This document shows, in pieces, positions 29,853-36,837 of a DNA stretch of 64,000 nucleotides. The first letter of the stretch is position 1, and the number at the start of each line of letters is the position of its first letter. The stretch comes from Parabacteroides faecis (GTDB lineage: Bacteria; Bacteroidota; Bacteroidia; Bacteroidales; Tannerellaceae), in NCBI RefSeq assembly GCF_014647375.1, contig NZ_BMPB01000005.1, forward strand, positions 1 to 64,000, written 5' to 3'. Under the pieces are notes generated by a model. It made no database searches. It was not told the DNA's origin and saw only the letters and a list, made by a program, of their open reading frames with translations. Made by a program: the position numbers and the translations under genes.

Positions 29853-30551
29853 CTAAAACAAGGAAATGATAAAACTGATAACAGGGACCAGAATCGCAGT
29901 CATGATTCCCATCAGCCCGATCGCTAATCCGCTCAAAGCGCCTTCAATGGCACCGATCTGAATGGCTACTGAAGTACCCAGTCCGTGTGAAGAGGCTCCG
30001 AGGGCCAATCCCTTGGCAATCCGGCTTTCTATTCCGAGTACTTTCATGACAAACGGACCGACAATACTGCCGAATATACCTACTGCTACAACGATCACTG
30101 CTGTCAGTGAAGGGATTCCTCCAGCCTTTTCTGCGATCCCCATGGCGATAGGAGTTGTGACCGACTTCGGTTGGAGCGAGGCGATCAATGCCTGGTCGGC
30201 CCCCATCAGATCGCCGATTACGATGACACTGACGATACCTACGATTGCTCCGACGAATACGGAAGTGAGAATGGAAATTACATTCCCTTTCAAGTACCGT
30301 ACCTGGTCATAGAGGACGAAACCCAATGCTACGACCGAAGGCCCCAGCATGAAATGGATCAGATGGCTCCCTTTCTGAAAAGATTCGTATTCTATGCCCA
30401 TTGTTTTCAGAACAAGTATGATTACGAATATGGAAGTCAACAACGGATTCAGCAGGCTGATACGTGTCTTTTTGTATAAAGCGAGTGCTGCCAGGTAAGT
30501 ACCGATCACTAAAGTGAGTGCAAATACTTCGGAATGTACCAGATTATTCAT
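29853..30551 (-). CDS. lrgB: LrgB/CidB family membrane protein
   Basis: A 232-residue membrane protein starting MNNLVHSEVFALTLVIGTYL. I prefer 30551 over the in-frame ATG at 30602 because the latter lies well inside lrgA. Several hydrophobic helices are present; 'LIASLQPKSVTTPIAMGIAEKAGGIPSLTAV' and 'GLALGASSHGLGTSVAIQIG' are the LrgB family core. The family is tied to autolysis modulation in Gram-positives and to glycolate or pyruvate transport in plants and some bacteria. A carboxylate exporter role is possible here. The gene overlaps the end of lrgA by 8 bases. Confidence 0.92.
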   Translation of the reverse strand: MNNLVHSEVFALTLVIGTYLAALALYKKTRISLLNPLLTSIFVIILVLKTMGIEYESFQKGSHLIHFMLGPSVVALGFVLYDQVRYLKGNVISILTSVFVGAIVGIVSVIVIGDLMGADQALIASLQPKSVTTPIAMGIAEKAGGIPSLTAVIVVAVGIFGSIVGPFVMKVLGIESRIAKGLALGASSHGLGTSVAIQIGAIEGALSGLAIGLMGIMTAILVPVISFIISLF

Positions 30552-30894
30552 TGCTTTCACCCTCCTTTCCGAGTTTTTGCTGAATAAGGGCAACACTGGC
30601 AATCACCAGAATGGTGCTGACAACGGAAGCAGTCAAGATTACTGCCCAATATTGTGAGATAATGCCGAGAGAACTCATCAGTCCGACACCGGCAGGCAGG
30701 AAGAACAACCCCATATTCTCAGTCAGGATCGTCGATAACTTCTTTACATTTGCCGGCTTTACCAATTTGAATGCCAGTGCCAGGAATAACAATACCATAC
30801 CGATGACACTTCCCGGGATAAAGCCATCGATGAAAGAACTGATAAATTCTCCGGTAAAATAGAAGAACAGAATGTAAAATGCCTGTTTTAGCAT
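30544..30894 (-). CDS. lrgA: LrgA/CidA family membrane protein
   Basis: A 116-residue protein with four predicted membrane helices, the small holin-like partner of LrgB. 'FIPGSVIGMVLLFLALAFKLVKPANVKKLS' contains the conserved PGS(V/L)IGM motif, and 'NMGLFFLPAGVGLM' is the second family signature. The C-terminus is charged (LGKEGESNE). It is the first gene of the lrgAB operon, with a promoter box at 30922-30929. The regulators LytSR or CidR seen in other organisms are not adjacent. Confidence 0.93.
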   Translation of the reverse strand: MLKQAFYILFFYFTGEFISSFIDGFIPGSVIGMVLLFLALAFKLVKPANVKKLSTILTENMGLFFLPAGVGLMSSLGIISQYWAVILTASVVSTILVIASVALIQQKLGKEGESNE

Positions 30895-30921
30895 ATTTCT
30901 TTGCTGTTTTATTAGTCACTG

Positions 30922-30929
30922 CAAAGATA
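30922..30929 (-). promoter_or_regulatory. -7 box of lrgAB
   Basis: Minus-strand TATCTTTG (TAnnTTTG), 27 bases upstream of the lrgA ATG. Confidence 0.55.
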
Positions 30930-31047
30930 ACAGCTTTACAGGAAATATGTTCTATAACATATTAATTTAACATATCCAATCCTCTACAAGGCTGCTGTAA
31001 TCTTCCTCATGTTTATAGTTCAATTATTTCTAAATATGAGCGTTAAC

Positions 31048-31136
31048 TCTGTCCTCCCGGGCTTGACCCGGGATCGCATCCTATACTGATAATCAACACT
31101 CAGTATGAGATGGCGGGTCAAGGCCGCCAGGACAGA
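31048..31136. repeat. 89-bp imperfect inverted-repeat element
   Basis: TCTGTCCT (31048) and AGGACAGA (31129-31136) bound the element. Inside lie CCCGGGCTTGACCCGGG and, near the other end, GGCGGGTCAAGGCCGCC. The CTTGAC-centred GC hairpin is a widespread intergenic repeat type; a second copy is at 55436-55456. The rest of 30930-31404 shows no gene. A lone TAATTTTG at 31176 on the plus strand is more than 500 bases from the next gene. Confidence 0.6.
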
Positions 31137-31404
31137 AAGAGAGCCGCCATGATAGGATAAAGGTTCACCTTTTCCTAATTTTGTAGCAGATTAATTCCGC
31201 CAACGGGTTCTTATCATTCTTTCTTTATTTCCCCCGAAAAACAGGCTAAATTCCATCTTTTAACAATCCCTTGCGGAAAGTTGAAAAAACAGGTATTGAA
31301 ACACAGCGTATTATGAAATGCGTACGGGTATATATCTATATATGTAATAATAGTTGAAAATACAGTATGAAAGGTTGAATATTATAGGATAGAATATAAA
31401 AATC

Positions 31405-31615
31405 AAATGACGAAATTAAACGTTCCTTTTTTCTCGCCAGCAAAGTTAGACATAAGTTTTAAACCTACAATTCTTTCCCATAATTTTTTTTCAATTCTAT
31501 CCTCTTTCTTATCAATTGAATAGCAATTAGAGTACAAAAATCGTACTTCTTATTACCAAGGCAAGATACTACCTAAAAAATGGCGAGAAAAAAGGAACGT
31601 TTAATCTAGTCATTT
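31405..31615. promoter_or_regulatory. Putative invertible (phase-variable) promoter segment, OFF orientation
   Basis: Arms 31405-31439 and 31581-31615 are 35-base inverted repeats, 33/35 identical, with the inner 25 bases identical; the only mismatches are the 8th and 10th positions. They enclose 141 bases. Each arm carries AAACGTTCCT, close to the ARACGTTCGT motif I recall from the B. fragilis Mpi-controlled invertible promoters. On the minus strand the enclosed DNA holds ATTG-N19-TAACTTTG, an almost ideal promoter directed away from the gene at 31692. No perfect TAnnTTTG occurs on the plus strand between 31440 and 31691. Inversion would place the promoter at about 31550-31579, facing the gene, with a leader of roughly 105 bases. 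No recombinase gene is nearby; it would act in trans. Confidence 0.82.
31441..31471 (-). promoter_or_regulatory. Promoter inside the invertible segment
   Basis: Minus strand: ATTG (31468-31471), 19 bases, TAACTTTG (31441-31448). Both spacing and -7 box are canonical. In the present orientation transcription would run left into gene-free DNA toward the lrgA promoter region. Confidence 0.72.
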
Positions 31616-31691
31616 ACTCTCAGAGACGTTCCAAATCCAAGGTTAAAAGGCTTTTTAAGTAACACTATTATTAATATTAAATTAAACGATT

Positions 31692-34600
31692 ATGAACAAA
31701 AAGTTTTCTACGCTTTTGATGGCGGGTATGCTGGTCGCAGGCTCGTCATTTAATGTTAATGCGGCAGACGTTAAAGTGAATGGGGCACCGCTGAAGGTAG
31801 AACCTTTCGGAGGCACCAAAAGCGGTGTCTTTATTGTCAAAGATGCTGACAACGACGGTAAGATTAGTGCTGCGGACTACCTTCTTAAAGCAACTAAGAC
31901 TAAGGCCGGACAGTTGACTTACTCTGTGGTTGATTTAGGTACGGAAGATCTCAGCACTCTGACAGATAAAGAACTGGATGCACTTCTTTGGAATTTTAAA
32001 GAAGATATCATTACTGAAGGTGGTAGTGGTACACCGGGTGCTGCTGCAGGAACTAAACACTACTACTATTCTTTGGAAAGCAAAGCAACCGCAGTTCCTT
32101 TGGCTTTTAAAGTTAATGTTAATCCTTTTGTTTGTGTAGATAAGGCAGAGGAGTCAAAATTTGACAATGGCAAGACCCAGATTTGGTTCATGTCAAAAGT
32201 TGGTGATGGCAAGACTCAGATTAAAGCAGCTGATAAAAACGCTCAGTTGTTTTTGTATTATACCGGTGCCGCTACTTCCGGTGGCAACCAATTATTGACA
32301 GGTAGTTCAACGGCTGGTGCAGATGGGTTCACATTGGGTGGTCCGAGTTCTTCAGATAACTTCCTTCTTGCAACCTTAGGTGAAAGGGAGATTCTAGGAG
32401 AGAATGTCGCTGAAGAACTGAATGATATGAAGGGTGGTAGAGGTTTCATGTTCTCGTTTGCTAATAGCACATATAATAGCAAAGAAGTCTATGACAATAT
32501 CTTCAAGGATCTGGATTTGAGAGCGTTCTATGTGGATGAGGATCTGGATCCGAATGGCGCTGCTGATGAAACTGAAGATTTCATGCCGACGGATTCTCTC
32601 GCTTGGCAAGCCAATGGTGCACATTATGCTATCCCTGCCGGTATCTATTTGGCTTCAGACTGGAGCGCATTGGATAGAAAAGATGCCGAAGATAAAGAAA
32701 CGTTGAACACTTTCCGTATCACAAGTAAAGAACAGTTCAGCAAGATGACTTTCGTGGCTATTCATCCGCAAAGCTATACCAAGCTGACAGACGCTGGCCG
32801 CACTAATGGTGGCGGTTTCTTGCTGAAAACCGTAAAAGGTAGCGACATGAACTTCTATGATAAGAAGGGTGTGGATAAACTGGAAGTAACAAACAATACA
32901 GACATCCATAATGCAGCTTTGATGTCTAAAAAAGATGAAGTGTTCGTAGGTAACGCTTGTTTCACTGCCACGGTGAAGAATCCGCTGACAGAAAATGAAC
33001 AATATGAGTTGACTGTCGCTGACGCTCGTTTGGATGTTGCTAAAAACGGTACTCATGCTAATAAATCTGTAACTGTTACAGTACGTACCAGCACTAACAA
33101 TGTGAATGATCCTGCCGGAGATCCTTATCTGATGTCTGGTGTGGGAACTGATGTCGTAGCATTGAAAGCCGTTCCTTCAACAACATTGGCCGACGCTACA
33201 AGCCTGTTACACAACGATGCTACTCCGGCTATCTATGCAATCAAATTTGTCAGCGGTGCAGAAGAAGCCGCCAATGAAGAGGTTTCTGAATATGGACAGT
33301 ATTTGACATTGGAGTCAGATAATACAAATCCTAGTTCGCCGAACGACTTTACATTTGCTGCTATGCCGAGTGTAAATGACGGAGCTAATGAAAACGACCC
33401 ATTGTATCAGTTCGTAATCACAGGTGTTAAAGACAATGATAACGATCCGGATCACAAAAGAGAAACTGTCCGGATTACAAACCGTCTGACCGGTGCATCA
33501 GTTTGGGCAGTATTGTATGCCGAAAAGAAATTGGGTGACGATATCTATACGGTATATCCGTCTGTTAAAGATGGTATGCCACGTGACCAAAAGTTAAGAA
33601 TTGCTCATACTGCTGTTAACGGAGATTTTGTTTGGAATAATTCTTTGGAATTCAGAGGTATGCAAGTTCAGCTGATTGAAAAGAAAGATGTAAAGAAATT
33701 TGATACTTTCGAAACAGTTGAAAGCGAAGAAGGTTTGTTTACTTTCGAATTTGCCAAGACTGCTGAAGCAAACGACAGATTGTATGCAGCAGCAGCAAGG
33801 GATAAGAAGACCGGTAAGATTGAAATCTTTAATAATGGAAGCAGAGATGAGGTTGTAACATCTAAGACTGCTGACCAGTTCGAACTGATCCGTGTAAAAG
33901 AAGCTGGTAATGATAAGAAAGATAAAGTTTCTTACATCCTGAACGATTTCGTTTATATCCAGAATAATAACGTTGTTACTTCTCCGATTGAAAAGGATAC
34001 GGTTGCTTTCTATACTTATAATGTAAGATTCTTTGCTCCGGATGAAGATGATGTATATTACCTGAATGGAGGAAATTTATCACTGACCGAGAAAGAGTAC
34101 ATTATCAAATACAATCTGGATGGTTCTGTATCTCTGGTAGAAAAAAAGACTGGAACTACTTCAAATGTTGACTTCAGAAGCGCTATAAACTATTTGGCAG
34201 TAGCTGATGCTGTACAGGATGAAGAGACAGAAGAAACAGAAAGAGTTGATGTAGCAGCATGGGAAAATGCTCTGTATTATGATTATAAGAACGATTACAA
34301 CGAACTACCGGTTAAGACCTTCTTGGTACCTGAAAAGGTATATGGTTCATTAGAAGCTCTTCCGCAGACAACAGAATTCAAGAATACAGACAACTATGGT
34401 GGTTACCTGTTCATGAAGGATGAATTTGCAGCTGTGGTCAATCCGTTTGAAACTATGATATTCTGTTTGGATACAGTAGATACAGACAAGAATATACCTT
34501 CATTCTACATTCGCACGGAAGATAAGGCGAAGTTCTTGTATTTCGCTACAGACTCAGCTGACAGTAAACGAGTAGCTGACTGGAGAAAATATACATTTGC

Positions 34601-35141
34601 AAAAGATAATGAAGACTATGCTACACGCTTAATCTTTAAAGATGCAAGCATCGTCAGCCTGCAGGATGCTGATACATTGCAGACAATGGTTGACGGCAAG
34701 CTGACTAAGGTAGCTGTAAAAGAAAACAAAGTGACAGGTGTTAAGGGTGGCTTGAATAACTTCAAGTTCCAGGTAATCGAATCCGGTGACGGAGACGGTA
34801 CTTATGTAATCCGTAACGCAGCAGAAAGAGCTTATGTAATTTCCGTCAACGGTAATCTGACATTAGGTGCTGAAATAAAAGCCGCTGCTCGTTTCGAAGT
34901 AGATCCTACCATAACAGTAGCTAACGAAAGCATCGATGCTTCCAGTATCCAGGTTATTGCCGCTAACGGTGCCGTAATCGTTAAGGGTGCTGCCGGTAAG
35001 ACTGTTACAATCAGCAACGTATTGGGTCAGAAAGTTGCTAGCACAGTTGTTACTTCAGATGAAGCTACCATCGCTGCTCCTGCCGGTGTAGTTGTAGTAG
35101 CAGTAGAAGGCGAAGCTGCTATAAAAGCAATCGTAAAATAA
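31692..35141 (+). CDS. Large secreted surface (S-layer-like) protein with DUF6383-like C-terminus
   Basis: A 1149-residue exported protein with a Sec signal (MNKKFSTLLMAGMLVAGSSF, cut near NVNA-AD). The long body is Asp/Glu/Lys/Asn-rich with no Cys-rich or enzyme motif, and has many 'LTDAGR', 'YLTLES' and 'FLYFATDS'-type beta-strand segments. The last about 70 residues ('IQVIAANGAVIVKGAAGKTV', then 'TISNVLGQKVAS' and 'IAAPAGVVVVAVEG') resemble a type IX sorting domain and match my memory of DUF6383, a Parabacteroides-type domain. This fits the phase-variable S-layer glycoprotein family described for P. distasonis. D-S/T-A/I/L/V/M glycosylation-type triplets such as DSL and DTV occur. Expression is probably controlled by the invertible segment just upstream. 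The exact function is unknown. Confidence 0.75.
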   Translation: MNKKFSTLLMAGMLVAGSSFNVNAADVKVNGAPLKVEPFGGTKSGVFIVKDADNDGKISAADYLLKATKTKAGQLTYSVVDLGTEDLSTLTDKELDALLWNFKEDIITEGGSGTPGAAAGTKHYYYSLESKATAVPLAFKVNVNPFVCVDKAEESKFDNGKTQIWFMSKVGDGKTQIKAADKNAQLFLYYTGAATSGGNQLLTGSSTAGADGFTLGGPSSSDNFLLATLGEREILGENVAEELNDMKGGRGFMFSFANSTYNSKEVYDNIFKDLDLRAFYVDEDLDPNGAADETEDFMPTDSLAWQANGAHYAIPAGIYLASDWSALDRKDAEDKETLNTFRITSKEQFSKMTFVAIHPQSYTKLTDAGRTNGGGFLLKTVKGSDMNFYDKKGVDKLEVTNNTDIHNAALMSKKDEVFVGNACFTATVKNPLTENEQYELTVADARLDVAKNGTHANKSVTVTVRTSTNNVNDPAGDPYLMSGVGTDVVALKAVPSTTLADATSLLHNDATPAIYAIKFVSGAEEAANEEVSEYGQYLTLESDNTNPSSPNDFTFAAMPSVNDGANENDPLYQFVITGVKDNDNDPDHKRETVRITNRLTGASVWAVLYAEKKLGDDIYTVYPSVKDGMPRDQKLRIAHTAVNGDFVWNNSLEFRGMQVQLIEKKDVKKFDTFETVESEEGLFTFEFAKTAEANDRLYAAAARDKKTGKIEIFNNGSRDEVVTSKTADQFELIRVKEAGNDKKDKVSYILNDFVYIQNNNVVTSPIEKDTVAFYTYNVRFFAPDEDDVYYLNGGNLSLTEKEYIIKYNLDGSVSLVEKKTGTTSNVDFRSAINYLAVADAVQDEETEETERVDVAAWENALYYDYKNDYNELPVKTFLVPEKVYGSLEALPQTTEFKNTDNYGGYLFMKDEFAAVVNPFETMIFCLDTVDTDKNIPSFYIRTEDKAKFLYFATDSADSKRVADWRKYTFAKDNEDYATRLIFKDASIVSLQDADTLQTMVDGKLTKVAVKENKVTGVKGGLNNFKFQVIESGDGDGTYVIRNAAERAYVISVNGNLTLGAEIKAAARFEVDPTITVANESIDASSIQVIAANGAVIVKGAAGKTVTISNVLGQKVASTVVTSDEATIAAPAGVVVVAVEGEAAIKAIVK

Positions 35142-35490: not shown

Positions 35491-36837
35491 TTATGTCAAT
35501 GCCGAAGAAATGAACATATAAATCATCATTCCTATAATGTCGTTGGTGATTGTGATAAATGGTCCTGTAGCCAGAGCCGGATCGATTTTCAACCGGTCGA
35601 GCGTCATCGGCACAAGCGTCCCGAAGATACTGGCAAACATAACGACAGAAAACAAGCTTAATGAAACCGAGGCCGTGATCCCTTTATCCCCCAGCATAAA
35701 GAAATTGTAAATGAATACGACCAGACTGATAATACTGGCATTGATGAGCGCAACGATGCCTTCTTTCAGTATCTGCGGAAGAATATTGTCCTGTTTCAAC
35801 GAATTATTAGCCAAACCCTGTACCACGATGGCAGAAGACTGTATCCCGACATTACCCCCCGTACCACCGATCAGCGGGATGAACAACGCCATCTTTGGGT
35901 TACTTGCCAGGTTCCCTTCGAAACCGCCGAGAATGACCGAATTCGCCAGTCCGCCAATCATGCCGATCAACAACCAGGGGAGACGTGCCGCTGTTTGAGT
36001 AAATACGTTGTCCGAAGTTTCCACGTCTTGCGAGATACCGGAAGCCAACTGGTAGTCACGTTCATGTTGTTCACGTACTTCATCCATTACGTCATCGATC
36101 GTGATTCGTCCGACCAGGCGTCCGATGCTATCGACAACCGGAAGTGCTACAAGGTCGTACTTCTCAATCGTTTCGGCAACCTCCTCGATGCTGTCGCTGT
36201 CGCGGACAGAGATCGGCTCCTTTTTCATCACATGTTTGATCTTTGAAACGGAAGGGTTAGTGATCAGCCGTTGCAGGGGGAGGACGCCTTTCAGACGTTC
36301 ATCGTCGTCTATTACATATACATAATAGATTTCGTCCATATCTTCCGCCTGCTTACGCATTTCGTCGATACATTGCGGCATGCTCCAGTTCTCGTTGACC
36401 ACGATCATTTCCGTACCCATCAAACCACCGGCGGTGTCTTCATCATATTTCAACAGGTCGACAATATCGCCCGCTTGTTCGACGTCTTCGATGTGCGAGA
36501 GGATCTCTTCCTGTGTATCTTCGTCCAACTCACGCATCAGGTCTACCGCATCGTCGGTCTCCATGTTGTCGACGAAGCGTTTGGCGATCAGTTCGTTGGG
36601 TAGCTCTTTCAGTAATTTATGGCGGTCTTCTTCGTCCAGTTCCATCAAGACGTCGGCGGCCTTGTCGCCATCCATCAGCAGATACAGATAGATCGCTTCC
36701 TGAAGGTTCAGCTCCTGGTATAACTCGGCGATATCCGCCGGATATAAATCGTGGAGCAACGCTTGTGCTTTAGCATCGTTTTTTTCAGTAATGATGCTTT
36801 TCAGGTTGTCGATATAGTCTCTCGTCAGTTCGATCAT
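35491..36837 (-). CDS. mgtE: MgtE-type magnesium transporter
   Basis: A 448-residue Mg2+ channel of the inner membrane. The N-domain (residues about 20-125) is acidic, with 'LLHDLYPADIAELYQELNLQEAIYLYLLM'. Two CBS domains follow (about 135-255; 'GLMGTEMIVVNENWSMPQCIDEMRKQAED' and 'PISVRDSDSIEEVAETIEKYDLVALPVVD'). Five helices start near 285, including 'FIPLIGGTGGNVGIQSSAIVVQGLA', where the GGTGGNVGxQ pore motif lies. Cytoplasmic Mg2+ binding to the N-CBS region gates the pore. The gene follows rsmA by 12 bases in one operon. Confidence 0.95.
   Translation of the reverse strand: MIELTRDYIDNLKSIITEKNDAKAQALLHDLYPADIAELYQELNLQEAIYLYLLMDGDKAADVLMELDEEDRHKLLKELPNELIAKRFVDNMETDDAVDLMRELDEDTQEEILSHIEDVEQAGDIVDLLKYDEDTAGGLMGTEMIVVNENWSMPQCIDEMRKQAEDMDEIYYVYVIDDDERLKGVLPLQRLITNPSVSKIKHVMKKEPISVRDSDSIEEVAETIEKYDLVALPVVDSIGRLVGRITIDDVMDEVREQHERDYQLASGISQDVETSDNVFTQTAARLPWLLIGMIGGLANSVILGGFEGNLASNPKMALFIPLIGGTGGNVGIQSSAIVVQGLANNSLKQDNILPQILKEGIVALINASIISLVVFIYNFFMLGDKGITASVSLSLFSVVMFASIFGTLVPMTLDRLKIDPALATGPFITITNDIIGMMIYMFISSALT

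Follow-up and report, generated by a model that had tools for sequence, protein, structure and literature searches.

A very probably invertible promoter, assembled OFF, upstream of a putative DUF6383-family surface protein gene of Parabacteroides faecis

Phase-variable S-layer glycoproteins of Parabacteroides distasonis, controlled by DNA inversion, were reportedly described by Fletcher et al. in 2007. The repeats at these loci and at the capsule loci of Bacteroides fragilis contain ARACGTTCGT, and Bacteroidales promoters follow the consensus -33 / TAnnTTTG. Inversion sites have been reported in P. distasonis (PMC5903667), and one serine invertase of B. fragilis, Mpi, inverts capsule promoters at many sites (PMC5903667, PMC12632263). 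The S-layer switch of Bacteroides thetaiotaomicron, BT1927, is mostly OFF, with about 1 in 1,000 cells expressing in vitro (PMC12548429), and is locked by mutation of one repeat (PMC12548429; PMC12578637). The BT1927 repeat is given as CCGTTACCTABVRAGTAAC, with neighbouring site-specific integrase genes (PMC12118408).

The window analysed here is a stretch of 64,000 nucleotides, positions 1-64000 of contig C5 in a Parabacteroides genome of 6.66 Mb and 33 contigs (G000), a near relative of P. gordonii and P. goldsteinii. Positions 31405-31615 had been read in an initial annotation as an invertible promoter, captured OFF, upstream of a giant surface protein. We conclude that this segment is very probably an invertible promoter, assembled in the OFF orientation, and probably a target of an Mpi-family serine invertase. 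The features of the locus are as follows.

29853..30602, minus strand: LrgB-family gene (family search)
30544..30894, minus strand: LrgA-family gene, the upstream neighbour, transcribed away (family search)
31405..31439, plus strand: left arm (recombination site), with the central dinucleotide TT at 31423-31424
31424..31596, strand not applicable: stretch predicted to invert, bounded by the two crossover points, as judged from inversion at sister loci
31441..31471, minus strand: promoter ATTG-N19-TAACTTTG, read from 31471 down to 31441 and pointing away from the gene (OFF)
31504..31513, minus strand: GATAAGAAAG, a conserved upstream element that also points away from the gene (sequence and family orientation counts)
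31581..31615, minus strand: right arm, with the matching central dinucleotide, AA on the plus strand, at 31596-31597
31616..31691, plus strand: untranslated leader, sharing 0.94 identity with the leader of the copy at C1:205k (compared from 31611 on)
31692..35141, plus strand: putative surface protein gene of the DUF6383 family, 1,149 aa (open reading frame and profile match)
34917..35135, plus strand: DUF6383 C-terminal domain, with a weak, sub-threshold match to the T9SS type A sorting domain
35491..36837, minus strand: MgtE-type transporter gene, the downstream neighbour (family search)

The coordinates and spacing of the repeats were confirmed: the arms are 35 nt each, identical at 33 of 35 positions (94% complementary), and 141 nt apart. 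In 100 mononucleotide shuffles of 30901-32200, not even a pair of 20-nt arms appeared when up to three mismatches and a loop of 20-500 nt were allowed. When arms of 33 nt were required, with no more than 2 mismatches and the same range of loops, only two places in the 64-kb window qualified, 31405-31615 and 1415-1582. A large palindromic element lies at the second place (1416-1581), its 63-nt arms 83% complementary and 40 nt apart. An imperfect long hairpin was also noticed by eye at 31050-31140, between lrgA and the left arm; we considered the hairpin (31035-31150) as a repeat family and dropped this idea on finding a single copy in the genome.

The inverted repeats at 31405-31615 flank a promoter of the Bacteroidales type (-33 / TAnnTTTG). 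The only perfect TAnnTTTG in the 141-bp inner segment points away from the 31692 gene, and a motif scan of 31181-31700 found none facing it, in agreement with the initial annotation. When 31405-31615 was reversed in silico, the end of TAACTTTG fell 112 nt before the ATG; the position of about 105 nt upstream of the ATG, proposed for the promoter after flipping, is therefore right.

The product of the 31692 gene ends in DUF6383 (PF19910, 97.1 bits). Its description as a surface protein is supported by this C-terminus and by an N-terminus read by eye as a signal peptide; the S-layer label is a putative one, taken from homology. In 13 of 14 family members the tail gave a weak match to the T9SS type A sorting domain (best E 0.00076), the 31692 protein itself scoring 16.8 bits against a cut-off of 23. 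Since this weak likeness is accompanied by the T9SS component SprA in G000, secretion of DUF6383 proteins by T9SS is plausible.

DUF6383 matches in G000 numbered 16, of which the 14 scoring above 85 bits formed the family set, with two weak matches (40.1 and 33.7 bits) left out. A search for other arm copies near similar genes, as the initial annotation had proposed, found arms with a promoter inside before 11 of these 14 genes; the test accepted arms within 6 mismatches of 22 with a promoter between them, and the gene strand was that of the database match. All 11 segments were OFF, and no ON copy was found among them. By the same test three genes were arm-less. One of them, C4:142.7k, has ATTG-N19-TACTTTTG directed toward its gene; the other two, C4:309k and C22:22.7k, have sites of the TATCTTTG type in that direction. 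A twelfth complete segment precedes a start codon at C5:163.6k (L016:5100-5400); the family search reported no DUF6383 gene behind it, and it is possibly the promoter of a decayed family member. Four further segments, with nearly palindromic TGACTAGAAAAAACGATCGTTTTTTCTAGTCA-like arms, were seen in G000 on contigs C8, C13, C15 and C18 (L018, L020, L021, L023), and those on C8 and C13 adjoin genes read from their sequences as polysaccharide-related.

These copies bear on another reading of the promoter direction, in which the promoter works as it stands and drives lrgAB to the left. The promoter does point left, and the distance from it to the start of lrgA, a minus-strand gene, is about 510 bp. 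However, the leader and the family gene lie on the same side in the 11 copies while the far-side genes differ, and three of these copies (L010, the second segment of L011, and L022) have a far-side gene that is oriented toward the segment. We regard an lrgAB promoter as highly improbable, and the promoter is best read as that of the 31692 gene in the OFF orientation.

Four serine-recombinase genes were found in G000. The profile NF009949 (master DNA invertase Mpi family, cut-off 272) matched the gene at C13:214216-214812 with 319.8 bits, so that the Mpi-type invertase gene sought on the basis of the initial annotation is present. The other three scored 188, 185 and 41 bits, all below the cut-off; the first two are Mpi-like paralogues at C2:147k and C7:327k (L047:5146-5745 and L048:4951-5589). 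Close relatives of the C13 invertase were found widely in the genus, the best matches being 95-96% identical in G019, G022 and G024 and 78% identical in G016.

The central dinucleotide was equal in both arms in 60 of 60 segments from G000 (11), G019 (18), G022 (16) and G024 (15), in which arms were placed by similarity to two reference cores. Five kinds occurred: TT in 34 segments, AT in 16, GT in 4, AC in 4 and TC in 2. When arms of different loci were paired at random, matches averaged 24.1 with a maximum of 35 (2,000 shuffles, with the kinship of loci retained). Three variable inner arm positions also agreed far better than when shuffled, and outer half-arm positions agreed at or slightly above the shuffled rate. 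The arms of L097, which fell below the placement threshold, read AT/AT by eye. Because serine recombinases require an identical 2-bp overlap at the crossover, matched central dinucleotides are the pattern expected of working sites.

The segment might instead be inverted by one of the Mpi-like paralogues (C2:147k, C7:327k) or by a tyrosine recombinase. Two further Mpi-like genes do exist, and the enzyme search covered serine recombinases; but the C13 gene alone passes the Mpi cut-off, close relatives of it are widespread in the genus, and the identity of the central 2 bp is a serine-recombinase pattern. Such an alternative enzyme is unlikely in our judgement. We infer that the Mpi-family invertase from C13:214216-214812 is the enzyme, and that it would bring the arms together, break both at their central dinucleotide (TT/AA) and rejoin the ends so that the core with its promoter is reversed. 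Transcription would run away from the 31692 gene in the assembled orientation (OFF); in the reversed one (ON) its start would fall within the right arm, some 105 nt upstream of the ATG. The orientation of the segment would then set expression of a protein that presumably forms a surface coat.

Inversion was observed between species at two sister loci. The locus beside surE, lpxB and parAB (names read from sequence) was ON in G022 and OFF in G024, G019 and G000. Between G022 and G024 the inner segment was 0.64 identical directly and 0.95 identical when reverse-complemented, with flanks at 0.90 and 0.98. At the second locus, G013 (ON) and G014 (OFF) had inner identities of 0.52 directly and 0.87 reverse-complemented, with flanks at 0.78 and 1.00. 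The flipped orientation, the lack of which in related genomes was to have counted against an invertible promoter, was found at these two sister loci but not at the window locus: no ON form of 31405-31615 was found among the genomes compared, and both orientations are known from the sister loci. The strong family gene nearest to MgtE is about 5 kb off in G019, 10 kb in G022 and roughly 20 kb in G024, and the best match of the 31692 protein lies elsewhere, so the window locus has no clean orthologue. Together with the 11 genome copies, the matched dinucleotides and the Mpi invertase gene, inversion at the two sister loci upheld the reading of the segment as an invertible promoter.

The state of the family was scored over ten genomes. 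For seven of them, the upstream regions of 114 genes (14 of G000 and 100 others) were used, leaving out four genes with short open frames and matches below 60 bits; 80 were scored OFF and 2 ON directly. L102 and L109, flagged both ways, were taken as OFF from the main promoter and GATAAGAAAG, which face away, and L100 and L145, with arms and only a -7 element facing away, were also taken as OFF. This gave 84 OFF and 2 ON, the other 28 of 114 being without an invertible promoter by the arm test. The direction of GATAAGAAAG agreed with that of the promoter motif in every scored locus having both among these 114 genes; three OFF loci were without GATAAGAAAG.

Three more genomes were sampled in part (9 places in G004, 7 genes above 60 bits in G021 and 4 of 8 such genes in G012) and gave 11 OFF and 2 ON, the latter being L231 and L229. 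L229 was scored ON though its contig ends inside the segment. L231, L229 and L240 were judged by eye, and L223 and L230 stand outside the ON/OFF count. Named loci of P. gordonii, P. goldsteinii and a metagenome assembly are those of G019, G024 and G004 and entered the count once; the counts are without the DUF6383 genes of G002, G006, G011 and G033. In the metagenome assembly G004, the contigs of L229, L223 and L230 break off within the invertible segment or next to it, perhaps because both orientations were present among the cells sampled.

Of the orientable family members, 95 of 99 were OFF and 4 were ON, although these are not 99 independent throws, because the loci are related by descent and one assembly shows one orientation. 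OFF is the usual state of the family and not a peculiarity of this clone. The statement that this clone is OFF was borne out by the promoter motif and by GATAAGAAAG across the family; as a snapshot specific to the clone, it gave way to the family-wide excess. The literature searched, with most subscription papers, Fletcher et al. 2007 included, outside its coverage, held no description of an OFF excess or of a fixed copy in Parabacteroides, and part of the family-wide pattern may already be known from Fletcher et al. 2007.

The excess of OFF copies and the lack of an ON form at the window locus would also suit a frozen relic, with arms that have ceased to recombine and a gene that either is silent or has a fixed promoter which escaped recognition. 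Against this, the arms retain 33 of 35 positions and a matched crossover dinucleotide, sister loci have inverted, three sister genomes retain the invertase gene with 95-96% identity, and 31181-31700 holds no perfect forward TAnnTTTG. A relic is accordingly improbable, and we continue to regard the segment as very probably an invertible promoter that was assembled OFF.

In each of nine genomes there was one arm-less copy with TTG-N19-TAnnTTTG facing the gene. These fixed copies are L013, L110, L125, L156, L165, L179 and L185 in the seven genomes, where the promoter begins 130-137 nt upstream of the start codon and GATAAGAAAG is oriented likewise, and L233 in G021 and L239 in G012 (4 of 8 genes read) among the further genomes. 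The fixed copy occupies the same site in G000, G019, G022 and G024, where it is preceded by genes for 267 and 384 aa and followed by a 426-aa gene on the other strand. The gene at this site is alike in start and length in G000 and G024 and different in G019 and G022. The G022 allele matches G019 L100 (C1:1703874-1707761) with 76% identity over the full length, the next best being 43%, and L100 has arms and an OFF-facing -7 element. Directly after the fixed promoter, ACGATCGT, which is like the arm centre, is present in G000, G019, G022 and G024. This likeness suggests that the fixed copy may derive from an invertible segment that was locked ON when its arms decayed.

In G022, G013 and G021 the fixed copy is accompanied by an invertible one that is ON. 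The idea of exactly one constitutive copy was dropped, since other arm-less family genes exist: a second forward one with GATAAGAAAG and TATCTTTG occurs in the clade of G000 (its own L043, and L118, L140 and L161), and L044, L119, L120 and the like are other arm-less members. In four more family genes, L094, L098 and L112 of G019 and L133 of G022, a forward promoter lies 406-411 nt upstream, and the leader is long. By eye, these leaders contain hairpins and a T run resembling a terminator, and no Rfam family was found in that of L094; attenuation in the four leaders is possible.

Compared with the copy at C1:181k, the inner segment of the window locus showed an identity of 0.96, with the likeness falling off in both arms. 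Compared with C1:205k the identity was 0.97; here the likeness fell off in the left arm but on the other side extended, at 0.94, across the leader as far as the start codon. The best match of the 31692 protein in the four other genomes searched was 53% identical, at G019 C1:3660k, away from the G019 MgtE gene at C1:1772k. Alleles, promoters and sites have thus been reassorted by recombination. Either homologous recombination or invertase-mediated exchange at the arm centres would fit this movement of modules.

The family pattern suggests, as far as the genomes' sequences can tell, a default coat and a silent, shuffling archive. A fuller form of this proposal is a two-level antigen system: an arm-less, frozen-ON default coat would stand beside 7 to 19 mostly-OFF invertible alternatives per genome, alleles and modules would move between sites partly via arm-centre crossovers, and the default would change between species. 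We offer it tentatively and think it somewhat more likely to be wrong than right. Its testable and less expected parts are the 95 of 99 OFF, the arm-less copy in each of nine genomes, and the unlike alleles at one site in sister species. If expression agrees, the gut symbiont would show mainly one coat while keeping many others in reserve against phages or immunity, and the expressed coat could be predicted from an assembly simply by whether arms are present and which way the promoter points.

Compared with the known systems, the locus differs from the B. fragilis capsule loci, which control polysaccharide operons with UpxY/UpxZ, whereas the window segment precedes a single surface-protein gene; upxY/upxZ and polysaccharide genes were absent downstream, where one DUF6383 gene is followed by MgtE and then rRNA adenine dimethylase, both on the opposite strand. 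The BT1927 switch is a close precedent, as an invertible S-layer promoter that is mostly OFF like the DUF6383 family; its repeat was absent, by eye, from the window arms. The P. distasonis S-layer system belongs to the same genus and reportedly has large surface glycoproteins under inversion control. G016, which we take to be P. distasonis ATCC 8503 and its genes the published S-layer genes, shares the layout and the DUF6383 tail with G000, and 9 of its 9 orientable copies were OFF; the arm sequences differ between the two clades, with 9 arm-bearing copies against 11. These comparisons support the view that the switch is of a known sort, like the P. distasonis S-layer glycoprotein promoters, and that the family-wide state is the less expected part.
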